Shown: in pieces, positions 10,923 to 16,154 of the stretch
Position numbering within the stretch: the first letter of the stretch is position 1
How the letters are laid out: every line of letters begins with the position of its first letter
NCBI GenBank assembly: GCA_031081715.1
Contig: JAVHMA010000001.1
Location: 157,385-221,384 of the forward strand
Length of the DNA: 64,000 nt
Direction of reading: 5' to 3'
Origin: Armatimonadota bacterium
GTDB lineage: Bacteria > Sysuimicrobiota > Sysuimicrobiia > Sysuimicrobiales > Humicultoraceae
The notes under the pieces: generated by a model
Told to the model about the DNA's origin: nothing
Seen by the model: only the letters and a program-made list of their open reading frames with translations
Database searches by the model: none
Translations under genes and position numbers: made by a program

Positions 10923-11429
10923 ATGCGGCAGCCTGCGTGGGCGGCGGCGGTGCACAGGCTGGCGGCGGCAGTCGCCGAGCGTCACGGCCTGGCGCTGGCC
11001 GGGCTTGAGGTGCTGGGTGAGGGGCGGCGCACGATCGTCCGCGTCAGCGTCGAGAGCGAGGCTGGCCTCACGGTGGAACGCTGCGCTGAGGTGGCGGAGG
11101 AGCTCGGCCGCGCGCTCGACCTGCACGACCCGATCCCGCACGCCTACACCCTGGAGGTGGCCTCGCCGGGTCTGGACCGCCCGCTGCTCAGCGAGGCCGA
11201 CTTCAGGCGCTTCGCCGGCCGGAAGGTCGAGGTCACCACCTCCGCGCCGGTCGAGGGCCGCCGGCACTGGAAGGGCCGGCTGCTCGGGCTGGAGGCGGAC
11301 CAGGTCGTCCTCGACGTCGGCGGAGAGATGGCGCGCCTGCCGCTGGAGGCGGTGGCGCGGGCGCGCCTGGCCGTGGACATGGAGGACCTGCGGGCGGATC
11401 TCGCCAGAGGAGGGCACGCCGGGTCATGA
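10923..11429 (+). CDS. rimP: Ribosome maturation factor RimP
   Basis: Assists 30S subunit assembly. 168 residues from ATG at 10923 with a strong GGAGGAGG ribosome site. It shows the family signatures GLEVLGEGRRTIVRVSVES and the core YTLEVASPGLDRPL, with the C-terminal SH3-like domain (GRKVEVTT, WKGRLLGLE). First gene of the operon, and its stop overlaps the nusA ATG by 4 nt. Confidence 0.95.
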   Translation: MRQPAWAAAVHRLAAAVAERHGLALAGLEVLGEGRRTIVRVSVESEAGLTVERCAEVAEELGRALDLHDPIPHAYTLEVASPGLDRPLLSEADFRRFAGRKVEVTTSAPVEGRRHWKGRLLGLEADQVVLDVGGEMARLPLEAVARARLAVDMEDLRADLARGGHAGS

Positions 11430-12604
11430 ACGCCGAGTTGCTCCGGGCGCTCGACCAGCTCGAGGAGGAGCGGGGAATCAGCAAGGACGTGATCTTCGAC
11501 GCCATCGAGGCGGCGCTGGTCTCCGCCTACAAGAAGAACTACGGTGCCACCGCGCAGAACATGCGGATCGAGGTCGACCGCGAGACCGGCGAGATGCGCG
11601 CCTACCAGGTGCGCACCATCGTCGAGGAGGTGGACGATCCGACGACGCAGATCGCGCTCGCACAGGTCCGCGAGTGGGATCCCACCGCGCAGGTCGGCGA
11701 GATGGTCGAGGTGGAGGTCACGCCCAAGGACTTCGGCCGGATCGCCGCGCAGACCGCGAAGCAGGTGATCGTGCAGCGCGTGCGCGAGGCGGAGCGCGAG
11801 ATGGTCTACAAGGAGTTCCGTGACCGCGAGGGCGACATCGTCACCGGCATCGTCCAGCGGATCGAACGGAAGAACGTCTTCCTCGACCTGGGCCGCATCG
11901 AGGCGGTCTTGCCGCCGCCCGAGCAGATCCCGCGCGAGAGCTACCGGCAGGGCGAGCGCGTCAAGGCGTACGTCGTCGAGGTGCGCCAGGGGACGCGCGG
12001 GCCGCAGATCGTCGTATCGCGGACGCACCCGGGTCTGCTCAAGCGCCTGTTCGAGCTGGAGGTGCCGGAGGTCTACGAGGGCATCGTCGAGATCAAGGCG
12101 ATCGCCCGTGAGGCCGGGACCAGGAGCAAGATTGCCGTGGCCTCGCGCGACCGCAACGTGGATGCCGTGGGCGCGTGCGTGGGGCCGAAGGGCTCGCGGG
12201 TGCAAGCGATCGTGGATGAGCTGCGCGGCGAGAAGATCGACATCGTCGCGTGGAACCCGGACATCGGCCAGTTCGCTGCCGCGGCGCTCTCGCCGGCCAA
12301 GGTCGTACGCGTGGAGATCGACGACGCGACGAAGACCGCGCTGGTGATCGTGCCCGACCACCAGCTCTCGCTGGCGATCGGTCGCGAGGGCCAGAATGCG
12401 CGCCTAGCCGCCAAGCTCACCGGCTGGCGCATCGACATCAAGAGCGAGTCGCAGATTCGGGAGATCGAGGCGCAGAAGCTGTTCGTCGACTTGCCCGAGG
12501 AAGAGCCCGCGGCGGCCGGGCCGACGTCGGAGGTCACAGCCCCGCGCGCGGACGGGGCGCCCGCGGAGGCCGCGGCCCCCGCGGTGCCGGAGCCGGTCGA
12601 GTAG
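11426..12604 (+). CDS. nusA: Transcription termination/antitermination factor NusA
   Basis: RNA polymerase-binding elongation factor that modulates pausing, termination and antitermination. 392 residues. The N-terminal RNAP-binding domain covers 1-130, the S1 domain is about 136-200 (GDIVTGIVQRIERKNVFLDL), KH1 about 230-285 with GPKG at 253-256, and KH2 about 300-355 (LAIGREGQNARLAAKLT). The tail is a short Ala/Pro/Glu-rich extension. There are no C-terminal acidic repeats of the enterobacterial kind, so the layout is the short Gram-positive one. Coupled to rimP by ATGA. Confidence 0.97.
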   Translation: MNAELLRALDQLEEERGISKDVIFDAIEAALVSAYKKNYGATAQNMRIEVDRETGEMRAYQVRTIVEEVDDPTTQIALAQVREWDPTAQVGEMVEVEVTPKDFGRIAAQTAKQVIVQRVREAEREMVYKEFRDREGDIVTGIVQRIERKNVFLDLGRIEAVLPPPEQIPRESYRQGERVKAYVVEVRQGTRGPQIVVSRTHPGLLKRLFELEVPEVYEGIVEIKAIAREAGTRSKIAVASRDRNVDAVGACVGPKGSRVQAIVDELRGEKIDIVAWNPDIGQFAAAALSPAKVVRVEIDDATKTALVIVPDHQLSLAIGREGQNARLAAKLTGWRIDIKSESQIREIEAQKLFVDLPEEEPAAAGPTSEVTAPRADGAPAEAAAPAVPEPVE

Positions 12605-12613
12605 CGGAGGTCC

Positions 12614-12940
12614 ATGGCGAAGGTCAGGCGGGTTCCCCAGCGCCAGTGCGTGGCGTGCCGGCAGATGCGGCCGAAGCGCGAGCTCGTGCGCGTCGTGCGC
12701 ACGCCCGCGGGCGAGGTGCGCGTCGACCCGACGGGGAAGGTCTCGGGCCGCGGCGCCTACGTCTGCCCGGCGGCGGACTGCGCGGAGGTCGCCCTGCGCG
12801 CCGGTCGCCTCGAGCACGCGCTCGCCTCGCCGATTTCGGACGAGACGGCGCTGGCGCTGCGCGAGCTCGCGGCGCGAACCGCCGCCGCGCGCGCGGTGGA
12901 GACGCAAAATCCCAGGAGGCCGCGGCATGCGGGTGTATGA
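12614..12940 (+). CDS. ylxR: YlxR family protein (RnpM-like RNA-binding protein)
   Basis: 108-residue DUF448 protein with the usual QRQCVACRQMRPKRELVRVV start and the SGRGAYVCP core. Bacillus YlxR binds RNA and modulates RNase P; the same role is inferred here. The C-terminal 40 residues form a basic/Ala-rich helix beyond the compact domain. It lies between nusA and infB as in Firmicutes, overlapping infB by 14 nt. The ylxQ (L7Ae-like) gene that usually follows is absent. Confidence 0.9.
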   Translation: MAKVRRVPQRQCVACRQMRPKRELVRVVRTPAGEVRVDPTGKVSGRGAYVCPAADCAEVALRAGRLEHALASPISDETALALRELAARTAAARAVETQNPRRPRHAGV

Positions 12941-15452
12941 ACTAGCGAAGGAGCTCGGGCTGTCCGCCAAGGAGCTGATGGACGTGCTGGCCGCGCTCAA
13001 GCTGCCGGCCAAGAGTCACAGCAGCAGTCTGACCCTGGCAGCTGAGCAGCGCGTGCGCGAGCACGTGGCGGCGACCCGGGCGAAGGGCCGCAAGGTGCAG
13101 CCCGCGGCGGCGCCGGCTGTGCCTGCGGGCCCACCCAGGCCCGAGTCCAAGACACCTACGGGCGAGCGCATCCTGGGCGTGCGCAAGATCGTGATCCCGC
13201 CGCCCCAGGTGGTCGAGGCGCCGGCGGCCGAGGTTGCGGCGCCGCAGGCCGAAACACCAGTACAGGTCAGGCCGGCGGCGCAGACCCCCCCGGCCCCGGC
13301 TGTGGAGGCGCCGCTCCAGGCGCAGGCCGCGACGTCTACCGCGCCGGTCGCGGAGCCGGCGAAGCCACCGGTCAGGCCCACCCCGCGCCCCACGCCCGAG
13401 GTTCCAGCCGGCGGCGTGCGTATCGAGCCGGTCCGGCCGCCGCGTCGCGAGCGCGAGCCGGGTCGAGAGCCCTCGAGGGCTCCGGCCGCGCCCGAGGAGG
13501 TGGCGCCCCCGGCGCCGCCGCGGCCCTCGCCGGCCCGCCCGCCTGCCGCACCCGACCGGCGTCGGCCAGCGGGCGGGGACGGTCGGGCGGCGCCGAGCCG
13601 ACCCCAGTTCCAGCCGCGTCGGCCGATGCGCCGGCTCCCGCGCCGCCGCAGGCCGCTGGTGCGGCCGGCCGAGCCCACCGCGGTGCCGACGGCCCCGCAG
13701 GTGGCGGCCGAGATCGAGCTGAGCGGGCCGCTCAGCGTCGGCGAGCTGGCCGCGCGGCTCCAGGTGCCCGGCGGCGAGATCGTCAAGCGCCTGCTCGAGC
13801 GAGGCGTGCTCGCCGGGATTAACCACCAGGTGCCGCTCGAGGTGGCCGCCTCCATCGCGGAGTCGTTCGGGACCGCGGTGCACACGCCCCCGGGGGCGGA
13901 GCGCCACCAGGCGCCGGTCCAGAAGATCGAACGGATGACCGTGGCCACGGGCGAGCGCGCGGTGGCGCGGCCGCCGGTGGTTACCGTCATGGGGCACGTG
14001 GACCACGGCAAGACCTCGCTGTTGGACGCGATTCGCCAGACGAAGGTCGCCGAGGGCGAGTTCGGCGGTATCACGCAGCACATCGGCGCGTCGGTGGTCG
14101 AGAGCGCCGGCCGGCAGATCGTGTTCATCGACACGCCGGGCCACGAGGCGTTCACGGCGCTGCGCGCCCGGGGCGCGCAGGTCACCGACATCGCGGTGCT
14201 GGTCGTGGCCGCCGACGACGGGGTGATGCCGCAGACCGTCGAGGCGATCAACCATGCGCGGGCGGCGGGTGTGCCCATCGTGGTGGCCATCAACAAAGTG
14301 GACCTGCCGCAGGCGAACCCCGACCGCATTAAGCAGCAGCTCTCGGAGCTGGGGCTCGTCCCCGAGGAGTGGGGCGGGGATACCATCATGGTGCCAGTCT
14401 CGGCCCGGCAGCGCACCGGGCTGGACCACCTGCTGGAGATGATCCTGCTGGTCGCCGATCTCGGCGACCTGCGAGCGGAGGTCGATCGGCCCGCCCGGGG
14501 GACCATCGTCGAGGCGCGGCTGGACCGCGGTCGCGGCCCGGTGGCCACCGTGCTCGTGCAGGAGGGGACGCTGCACGTGGGCGACGCGGTCGTCGCGGGC
14601 GAGACCTACGGCCGCGTCCGCGCGATGATCGACGCGCGCGGCCAGCGCGCGGAGGTCGCGACGCCGTCCGTGCCGGTGGAGGTCCTGGGGCTGGTGGACG
14701 TGCCTACCGCCGGCGACCTGCTCGAGGCCGTGCGGGACGAGCGCATGGCGCGTGCCGTGGCCGAGGAACGCCGGGAGCGTCGCCGCGCGGCCGAGCAGGC
14801 CACGCGCCCGGCCGGGGCGGAGGCGGTCGGCGGCGAGGAGGGGCCGCGCGAGCTGCGGCTGATCGTGAAGGCCGACGCCCATGGGTCGCTGGAGGCGCTG
14901 CAAGGCGCCATTCCGCGGCTCTCGACGCCCGAGGTCCGGATTGCGATCCTCCATGCCGGCGTCGGCAACGTCACGGAGTCGGATGTGATGCTCGCGGCGG
15001 CCAGCCGCGCGGTGGTGGTCGGGTTCAACGTGCGGCCGGACGGCCAGGTGCGCAGGATGGCCGAGGCCGAACGGGTGGACGTGCGCCTCTACCGCATCAT
15101 CTACGAGGTGCTGGACGACCTCGCGCAGATGCAGCGCGGCTTGGTGGCGCCGAAGACCCAGGAGGTGGTGCTGGGGCAGGCCGAGGTGCGCCAGGTCTTC
15201 ACGATCTCGCGCGTCGGCACGATCGCCGGGTCGTACGTCACCACCGGGCGGATCGTGCGGGGCGCCCAGGCGCGGCTCATCCGCGACGGCGTGGTAGTCT
15301 ACGACGGCCGCATCGGTTCGCTGCGGCGCTTCAAGGAGGACGTCCGCGAGGTGACCGAGGGATTCGAGTGCGGCATCGGGCTCGAGCGCTTCAACGACGT
15401 CAAGGAGCGGGACCTGATCGAGACCTACGAGGTCCAGCAGGTCCCGGCCTAG
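12927..15452 (+). CDS. infB: Translation initiation factor IF-2
   Basis: GTPase that delivers initiator tRNA to the 30S subunit. 841 residues. The N-terminal IF2_N helix bundle begins [19 protein letters not shown] long Pro/Ala/Arg-rich linker (about 60-250) and a second IF2_N-like unit (about 265-300) follow. The G domain has G1 GHVDHGKT (about 356-363), G3 DTPGHE and G4 NKVD. Domains II, III and IV end in [18 protein letters not shown]. It overlaps ylxR by 14 nt, and the next gene starts 20 nt after the stop. Confidence 0.98.
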
Positions 15453-15472
15453 GACTCACAGGAGCGCGGCCG

Positions 15473-15754
15473 ATCATCGTCGGCGTCGCCCGCGCGGAGT
15501 TGAGCCTGCCCGGGGCCCGGGGGCTGAAGGACAAGCGGCGGCTGGTGAAGAGCCTGGTGGAGCGGGCGCAGCATCGGTTCCGCGTCAGCGCGGCCGAGGT
15601 GGACCACCATGAGGCATGGCGGCGGGCCGCGGTCGGCTTCGCGTGTGTCTCCACATCCACGCGTCACGCCCACGAGATCCTGGCGGAGGTCGCCCGGTTC
15701 GTGGAGCGCCAGGACGAGGTCGTGTTGATGGACTTCCAGGTCGAGATCCGATAG
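15473..15754 (+). CDS. ylxP: DUF503 / YlxP-like protein, apparent ATC start codon
   Basis: 93 residues matching the small DUF503 family that sits between infB and rbfA in many Gram-positives: IVGVARAELSLPGARGLKDK, then the RRLVKSL helix and a VSAAEVDHHEAWRRAAVGF strand pair. No ATG, GTG or TTG occurs at the expected start. Homologues usually start M-I-V-G-V, which aligns the initiator with ATC at 15473. That codon lies 8 nt behind AGGAG (15460-15464), ideal spacing. The nearest in-frame GTG is about 100 nt upstream inside infB, and a TTG at 15497 would cut into the conserved strand. Function of the family is unknown (translation- or ribosome-linked by context). Confidence 0.82.
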   Translation: MIVGVARAELSLPGARGLKDKRRLVKSLVERAQHRFRVSAAEVDHHEAWRRAAVGFACVSTSTRHAHEILAEVARFVERQDEVVLMDFQVEIR

Positions 15755-15764
15755 GGAGAGGGAC

Positions 15765-16154
15765 ATGAGCGCCTCGCGCGCGGAGCGCCTGGCCGAGGTG
15801 ATCCGCACCGAGGCCAGCGAGATCATCCAGCGGGAGCTGCGCGATCCTCGCATCGGGTTCCTGTCGATCACCGATGTGGAGGTGAGCGCCGATCTGCGCC
15901 ACGCCAAGATCTTCGTGAGCGTGCTGGGCGACGCCGACGCGAAGCGCCGGACGATGGCCGCGCTCGCGCACGCGCGGGGGCGCGTGCGCTCGATGCTCGG
16001 CGGCCGACTCGCGCTGCGCTTCGTGCCCGAGATCGCCTTCCGGCTCGACGAGTCGATCGAGCGCGGGGCGCGGGTCGCGACCCTCCTGCGCCGGGTGACG
16101 GAGGACGGTTCGGGTGGAACCGCGGGCGGCGATCGCTCAGGCACTGGCGGATAG
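15765..16154 (+). CDS. rbfA: 30S ribosome-binding factor RbfA
   Basis: Cold-shock and 16S rRNA maturation factor with a KH-like fold. 129 residues. Signatures are RAERLAEVIRTEASEIIQRE, then RDPRIGFLSITDVEVSADL and KIFVSVLG, and RFVPEIAFRLDESIERG. The last 15 residues are a Gly-rich tail that overlaps the nrnA start by 41 nt. Ten nt follow the ylxP stop. Confidence 0.96.
   Translation: MSASRAERLAEVIRTEASEIIQRELRDPRIGFLSITDVEVSADLRHAKIFVSVLGDADAKRRTMAALAHARGRVRSMLGGRLALRFVPEIAFRLDESIERGARVATLLRRVTEDGSGGTAGGDRSGTGG

Follow-up and report, generated by a model that had tools for sequence, protein, structure and literature searches.

Comparison of related genomes indicates that ylxP, which encodes a DUF503 protein between infB and rbfA, is translated from an AUC codon in the 64,000-nucleotide stretch of DNA analysed here (the window), and that this start is real and fixed within one bacterial lineage, its position being well supported. 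The same rare codon stands at the homologous start in all six members of a clade, where it has been kept without a usable canonical start (ATG, GTG or TTG) in any of them. By analogy with rare starts studied in other bacteria, it probably lowers the synthesis of YlxP and places the protein under discrimination by initiation factor IF3.

The window follows the usual gene order, with nusA, ylxR/rnpM, infB, ylxP, rbfA and others (Table 1), as read from profile matches; ylxP lies directly behind infB, as the earlier note had stated. The infB stop codon TAG (15450-15452) is followed by 20 bases and then by the ATC of ylxP, a second ATC (15476-15478), GTC (15479-15481) and GGC. The nearest in-frame canonical codon upstream is a GTG 35 codons away, within infB, and the nearest downstream is a TTG at codon 10. 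The statements made earlier from the sequence, that AGGAG lies 8 nt upstream of the ATC and that no canonical start occupies the right place, are correct. Among the six genomes with the ATC start, infB and ylxP are 20-32 nt apart in five and 94 nt apart in G005; across the family the gap is 94-95 nt in G005 (L003) and G004 (L018) and 20-32 nt in the other eight genomes bearing ylxP. Upstream through infB, the ylxP frame has no stop for 380 codons (14369-15754, + strand), and mechanical calling of open reading frames yields a 461-residue ORF from GTG 14369 that covers ylxP.

Table 1. Positions in the window of ylxP, its start signals and neighbouring genes.
Feature	Position	Strand	Remarks
nusA	11426..12604	+	TIGR01953, E 1.5e-133
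ylxR/rnpM, RNase P modulator	12614..12940	+	NF047356, E 1.2e-29
infB, IF-2, 841 aa	12927..15452	+	directly upstream of ylxP; TIGR00487, E 1.3e-230
Shine-Dalgarno AGGAG	15460..15464	+	8 nt before ATC; read from the sequence
ylxP, DUF503, 93 aa	15473..15754	+	PF04456; 1J27 by sequence and fold
ylxP start codon ATC (well supported)	15473..15475	+	same in 6/6 clade members
TTG, ylxP codon 10	15500..15502	+	rejected start; CTG in the other five
rbfA, 30S ribosome-binding factor	15765..16154	+	canonical ATG; TIGR00082, E 1.1e-32

YlxP belongs to the same protein family as TT1725 of Thermus and SCO5707 of Streptomyces. Residues 3-89 align to positions 1-87 of the 88 in the PF04456 (DUF503) model (E-value 3.7e-30; 104.1 bits against a curated cut-off of 22.4), and the protein is full length with respect to both the family and the solved structure of TT1725 (1J27). 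The predicted structure has the same fold as 1J27 (Foldseek E-value 2.8e-9, TM 0.94), superposing with Z 16.8 and an rmsd of 0.9 over 92 aligned residues, and its first strand comprises residues 2-11 with a pLDDT of about 97. Other fold neighbours, the C-terminal domain of eIF2-alpha and permutants of S6, have in common a widespread ferredoxin-like arrangement, and function was not assigned from them; RbfA is absent among the fold matches listed, an absence that excludes nothing. Under tetracycline, the ribosome fraction has been described as enriched in SCO5707 (PMC7157823), which, together with the place of ylxP between infB and rbfA, fits a role for YlxP at the ribosome, and we infer such a role here.

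Of 61 genomes searched, 51 have ylxP. Within the order, all 43 genomes were searched and 39 gave a match, those without one being G010, G015, G032 and G033; two genes were set aside, as the N-terminus could not be aligned in G041 and the start lay off the contig in G017. The 37 readable starts comprise 26 ATG, six ATC, three TTG and two GTG, and the 31 canonical codons fall exactly where the six genes have ATC. All six ATC genes are in the family of the window genome (f1), in which the other four ylxP genes start with ATG, GTG, GTG and TTG, and they span four genera: g1 (G000, the window genome), g6 (G005), g4 (G003) and g3 (G002, G008 and G009). The other five proteins are 74-87% identical to the window copy. 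A tree for 35 genomes, inferred from YlxP without residue 1 joined to IF3, unites the six in one clade with a support of 0.995, indicating that the ATC start arose once, in the ancestor of the four genera. Relatives outside the order numbered 242, of which 80 from named genomes were kept and 79 had a readable start (the sequence of the remaining one, L038, begins inside ylxP). The sole ATC among these 79 belongs to L032 (JACQHU010000152.1), a public copy of G003 identical to it in ylxP start codon and upstream sequence; the others have a canonical codon at the aligned start or at most two codons away. This comparison of related genomes had been proposed in the earlier note as a check on the ATC start, and with all six clade members agreeing, the tree uniting them and no canonical position shared between them, the start assigned there is upheld.

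Conservation of the protein begins at codon 1 in the six genes, and GGAG(G) lies 7-8 nt before the ATC in every one of them, at a distance suited to initiation there. Codons 3, 4, 5, 7 and 9 show only synonymous differences among the six, indicating that these codons are translated. It is very improbable that YlxP starts elsewhere, whether before or after the ATC, or arises by a frameshift from infB, with the ATC as an internal isoleucine codon. Canonical codons are present near the ATC in some members (GTG at -2 in G005, TTG at -5 in G002 and G008, GTG at codon 5 in G003 and G005, TTG at codon 10 in G000), but each is private to a single member or a small group, and no ATG, GTG or TTG position anywhere in ylxP is common to all six. 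The GTG of G005 at -2 is only 1 nt from the Shine-Dalgarno sequence, the TTG at -5 is replaced by CTG in G009, and codons -14 to 0 are unconserved, whereas codons 3-9 evolve as coding sequence. G009 has no in-frame canonical codon between the upstream stop (-22) and codon 73, and G003 has none between the upstream stop (-23) and codon 5. The TTG at codon 10 was rejected as a start: it is CTG in the other five genes, it has no Shine-Dalgarno sequence at the right distance and, in the structural model, most of the strand 2-11 would be lost. Origin of YlxP by a frameshift from infB is unlikely, as 94 nt separate the end of infB from ylxP in G005. The chance that the ATC is a sequencing or assembly error is negligible; the genomes are mostly fragmented assemblies, but the same ATC recurs in all six clade members, independent genomes of four genera, and G003 has a matching public record, which rules this explanation out.

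Rare starts escape gene finders, and apart from infC only a few genes are known to use them. A survey of rare starts compared 261 kb of the window contig with the matching 160 kb region of G005, giving 90 coding-like gene pairs, in which a start was recognised by a sharp gain in protein identity right after the start codon together with a Shine-Dalgarno sequence in both genomes. Canonical codons passed this boundary test in 18 genes and rare codons in two, nusA and ylxP. The nusA candidate was rejected, since a shared ATG directly follows the rare codon, leaving ylxP as the only unexplained rare start among the 90 pairs; the test favours specificity over sensitivity, with canonical boundaries in just 18 of 90, and other rare starts may exist. 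Another survey, for shared canonical starts, was too blunt, as ylxP itself passed through a GTG at codon 29. Outside the window, the pairs g0_844, g0_128 and g0_857 have ambiguous starts, and the gene at G000:C41:116207-116966, which has CTG where G005 has TTG at a conserved start and a GTG 11 codons upstream, is possibly another weak start.

The gene for IF3 itself, infC, was found in 40 of the 43 genomes of the order, and its start position holds a rare codon in all 40: ATC in 34 and ATA in six (G030, G027, G024, G033, G013 and G012). In G036 and G034, both with ATC, an alternative ATA lies three codons downstream. The rare start is forced in 15 of the 40 (G001, G003, G007, G010, G011, G016, G017, G018, G020, G022, G025, G028, G031, G032 and G038) by an in-frame stop a few codons upstream with no ATG, GTG or TTG between. 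The window genome has one match to TIGR00168 (IF3), with ATC at the infC start position (L112, G000:C4:1630-2133, - strand). Gene finders would probably misplace the infC start of these genomes. Rare infC starts are well known, with ATT reported in E. coli, ATC in Streptomyces and AUA in S. aureus (PMC5472188, PMC13009471), so the result in this order is expected. It implies that infC and ylxP probably present IF3 with the same codon to discriminate against. The rare infC start is also present in relatives whose ylxP starts with ATG, indicating that the two starts do not covary.

An initiator tRNA with a CAT anticodon and the GGG/CCC anticodon stem is present in seven of the 11 family genomes, including G000, G005, G002 and G008, and the possibility of a changed initiator with the anticodon GAU was discarded on this evidence, an altered additional initiator having been sought only with the search pattern GGGNTNATAACCC. 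No tRNA was called at the hits of this pattern in G003 and G009 or at one of its two hits in G002, and G006 and G010 had no hit. With an ordinary CAT initiator in the window genome, AUC is a mismatched start codon. G005 has two initiator-like tRNA-Met genes 5.7 kb apart (L123 and L132; G005:C1, at about 2072685 and 2078414), the second of which differs in acceptor stem and D arm.

The ATC start has persisted while the rest of the gene changed. Between genera, 31-51 of the 93 third codon positions differ among the six genes; only 12 of the 92 other codons of ylxP are fully identical in all six, the same 12 being found among the 57 of codons 2-93 that encode the same amino acid throughout. Eight of the 39 other C-ending codons of the window gene keep C in all six. 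The third base of the start ATC alone says little, as the only other position with isoleucine in all six genes also has the codon ATC. The six genes represent one evolutionary event, so their conservation counts as persistence rather than repeated origin. A single base change would restore ATG, and the retention of ATC despite this suggests that selection may favour the rare start. Fixation by drift, with the output of ylxP hardly mattering, is improbable: the ATC has a single origin and canonical starts also vary within the family, as drift would allow, but the persistence described above and the conserved amino acid sequence of the protein argue against it.

Pairing of the Shine-Dalgarno sequence averages -9.4 kcal/mol in the six ATC genes against -6.9 kcal/mol in canonical relatives. 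Among the genomes of the order, this is a trend towards compensation of the rare codon that does not reach significance (p 0.066), and the window gene, at only -6.6 kcal/mol, is weaker than the mean of canonical genes. No regulatory RNA hairpin was seen over the ylxP start when folding was compared with shuffled sequences (z -0.90 to 0.77).

The AUC start arose once from a canonical start in the ancestor of the four genera and has been kept. In the mechanism proposed here, the ordinary formyl-methionine initiator tRNA, with anticodon CAU, would initiate at this codon, guided by the Shine-Dalgarno sequence 7-8 nt upstream; two bases of AUC pair with the anticodon and the third is mismatched. 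The AUC would hold YlxP synthesis well below the AUG level; in S. aureus in poor medium, the output from rare starts was reported as about 10% of that from AUG (PMC13009471). The output of YlxP would be tied to IF3 activity because IF3 rejects start complexes mismatched at the third base, and weak third-base start pairs have been described as disfavoured by IF3 (PMC10158994). By analogy, slow production of YlxP would be expected, speeding up whenever IF3 is scarce or loses stringency; infC, which itself starts with AUC or AUA in these bacteria, would behave in parallel. In Streptomyces, IF3 is reported to repress sigR through its GTC start, and either canonical codons or IF3 fidelity mutants increase SigR (PMC5472188). 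This precedent and the rare infC starts in 40 of 40 genomes lend circumstantial support to a link between the ylxP start and the initiation factors, which the earlier note had raised in suggesting that the rare start might sense initiation fidelity.

A plausible alternative, credited at somewhat less than an even chance, is that the AUC is a fixed attenuator that holds YlxP at a steady low dose compared with the IF2 and RbfA of the operon, with no meaningful regulation by IF3. Such an unregulated dose would fit the sequence nearly as well. It is in keeping with the range of ylxP starts in the family (ATG, GTG, TTG and ATC), as if weaker initiation were favoured, and with cvfC1 of S. aureus, whose AUU start is reported to give low output with no effect of the medium (PMC13009471). 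However, discrimination by IF3 against codons other than AUG, GUG and UUG is described as general (PMC5472188), so some sensitivity to IF3 would be expected wherever AUC is used. A larger claim built on IF3-dependent initiation of ylxP, which we consider rather unlikely, is that infC and ylxP form a small IF3 regulon in which YlxP reads out initiation stringency or the load of 30S maturation. IF3 and ribosome-associated YlxP would then rise together when free IF3 drops relative to 30S subunits, and in this clade the infC loop would have been extended to a second gene of translation.

The start of ylxP and its single origin were fixed by comparison alone, in bacteria of Sysuimicrobiota that are known chiefly through environmental assemblies; one class and one order have been described for Sysuimicrobiota (PMC11604079). 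Lying beside infB, ylxP offers a directly testable case of IF3 acting outside infC, and conservation boundaries at AUC, AUU or AUA codons are a possible route to other IF3-sensitive starts. A literature search of open-licence PMC papers found no report of an AUC start for ylxP or DUF503, and the Streptomyces DUF503 genes examined differ from that of the window in having no rare start.

The view in the earlier note that rare starts are known mainly for infC is too narrow, given the published GTC start of sigR, AUA of ccpN, AUU of cvfC1 and ATC of rnhC, alongside which the AUU start of pcnB is also cited. The start of infC shares its rare codon class with ylxP, and in this order it is ATC or ATA, but infC controls itself, whereas YlxP is no initiation factor as far as known and a loop through ylxP would be open. 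Like ylxP, Streptomyces sigR is a gene other than infC whose rare start is conserved inside a single bacterial lineage (PMC5472188). A GTG inside its Shine-Dalgarno region invites misannotation, and G005 likewise has a GTG adjoining the Shine-Dalgarno sequence of ylxP; sigR differs in being another gene with a GTC codon, proven by Edman data, codon mutants and infC fidelity mutants (PMC5472188). In S. aureus, the rare starts of ccpN (AUA) and cvfC1 (AUU) are reported to be conserved, to follow strongly pairing Shine-Dalgarno sequences and to reduce output (PMC13009471). The two genes encode a transcription repressor and a putative zinc-finger protein in another phylum, and their starts were shown by profiling and reporters (PMC13009471), whereas that of ylxP is known from sequence comparison. 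Listeria rnhC is a conserved gene other than infC in which an ATC start is fixed as in ylxP, but it lies outside the initiation operon and its start was confirmed experimentally according to the paper (PMC13068326). On the evidence of its six homologous starts, ylxP joins these other genes in which a rare start is conserved.
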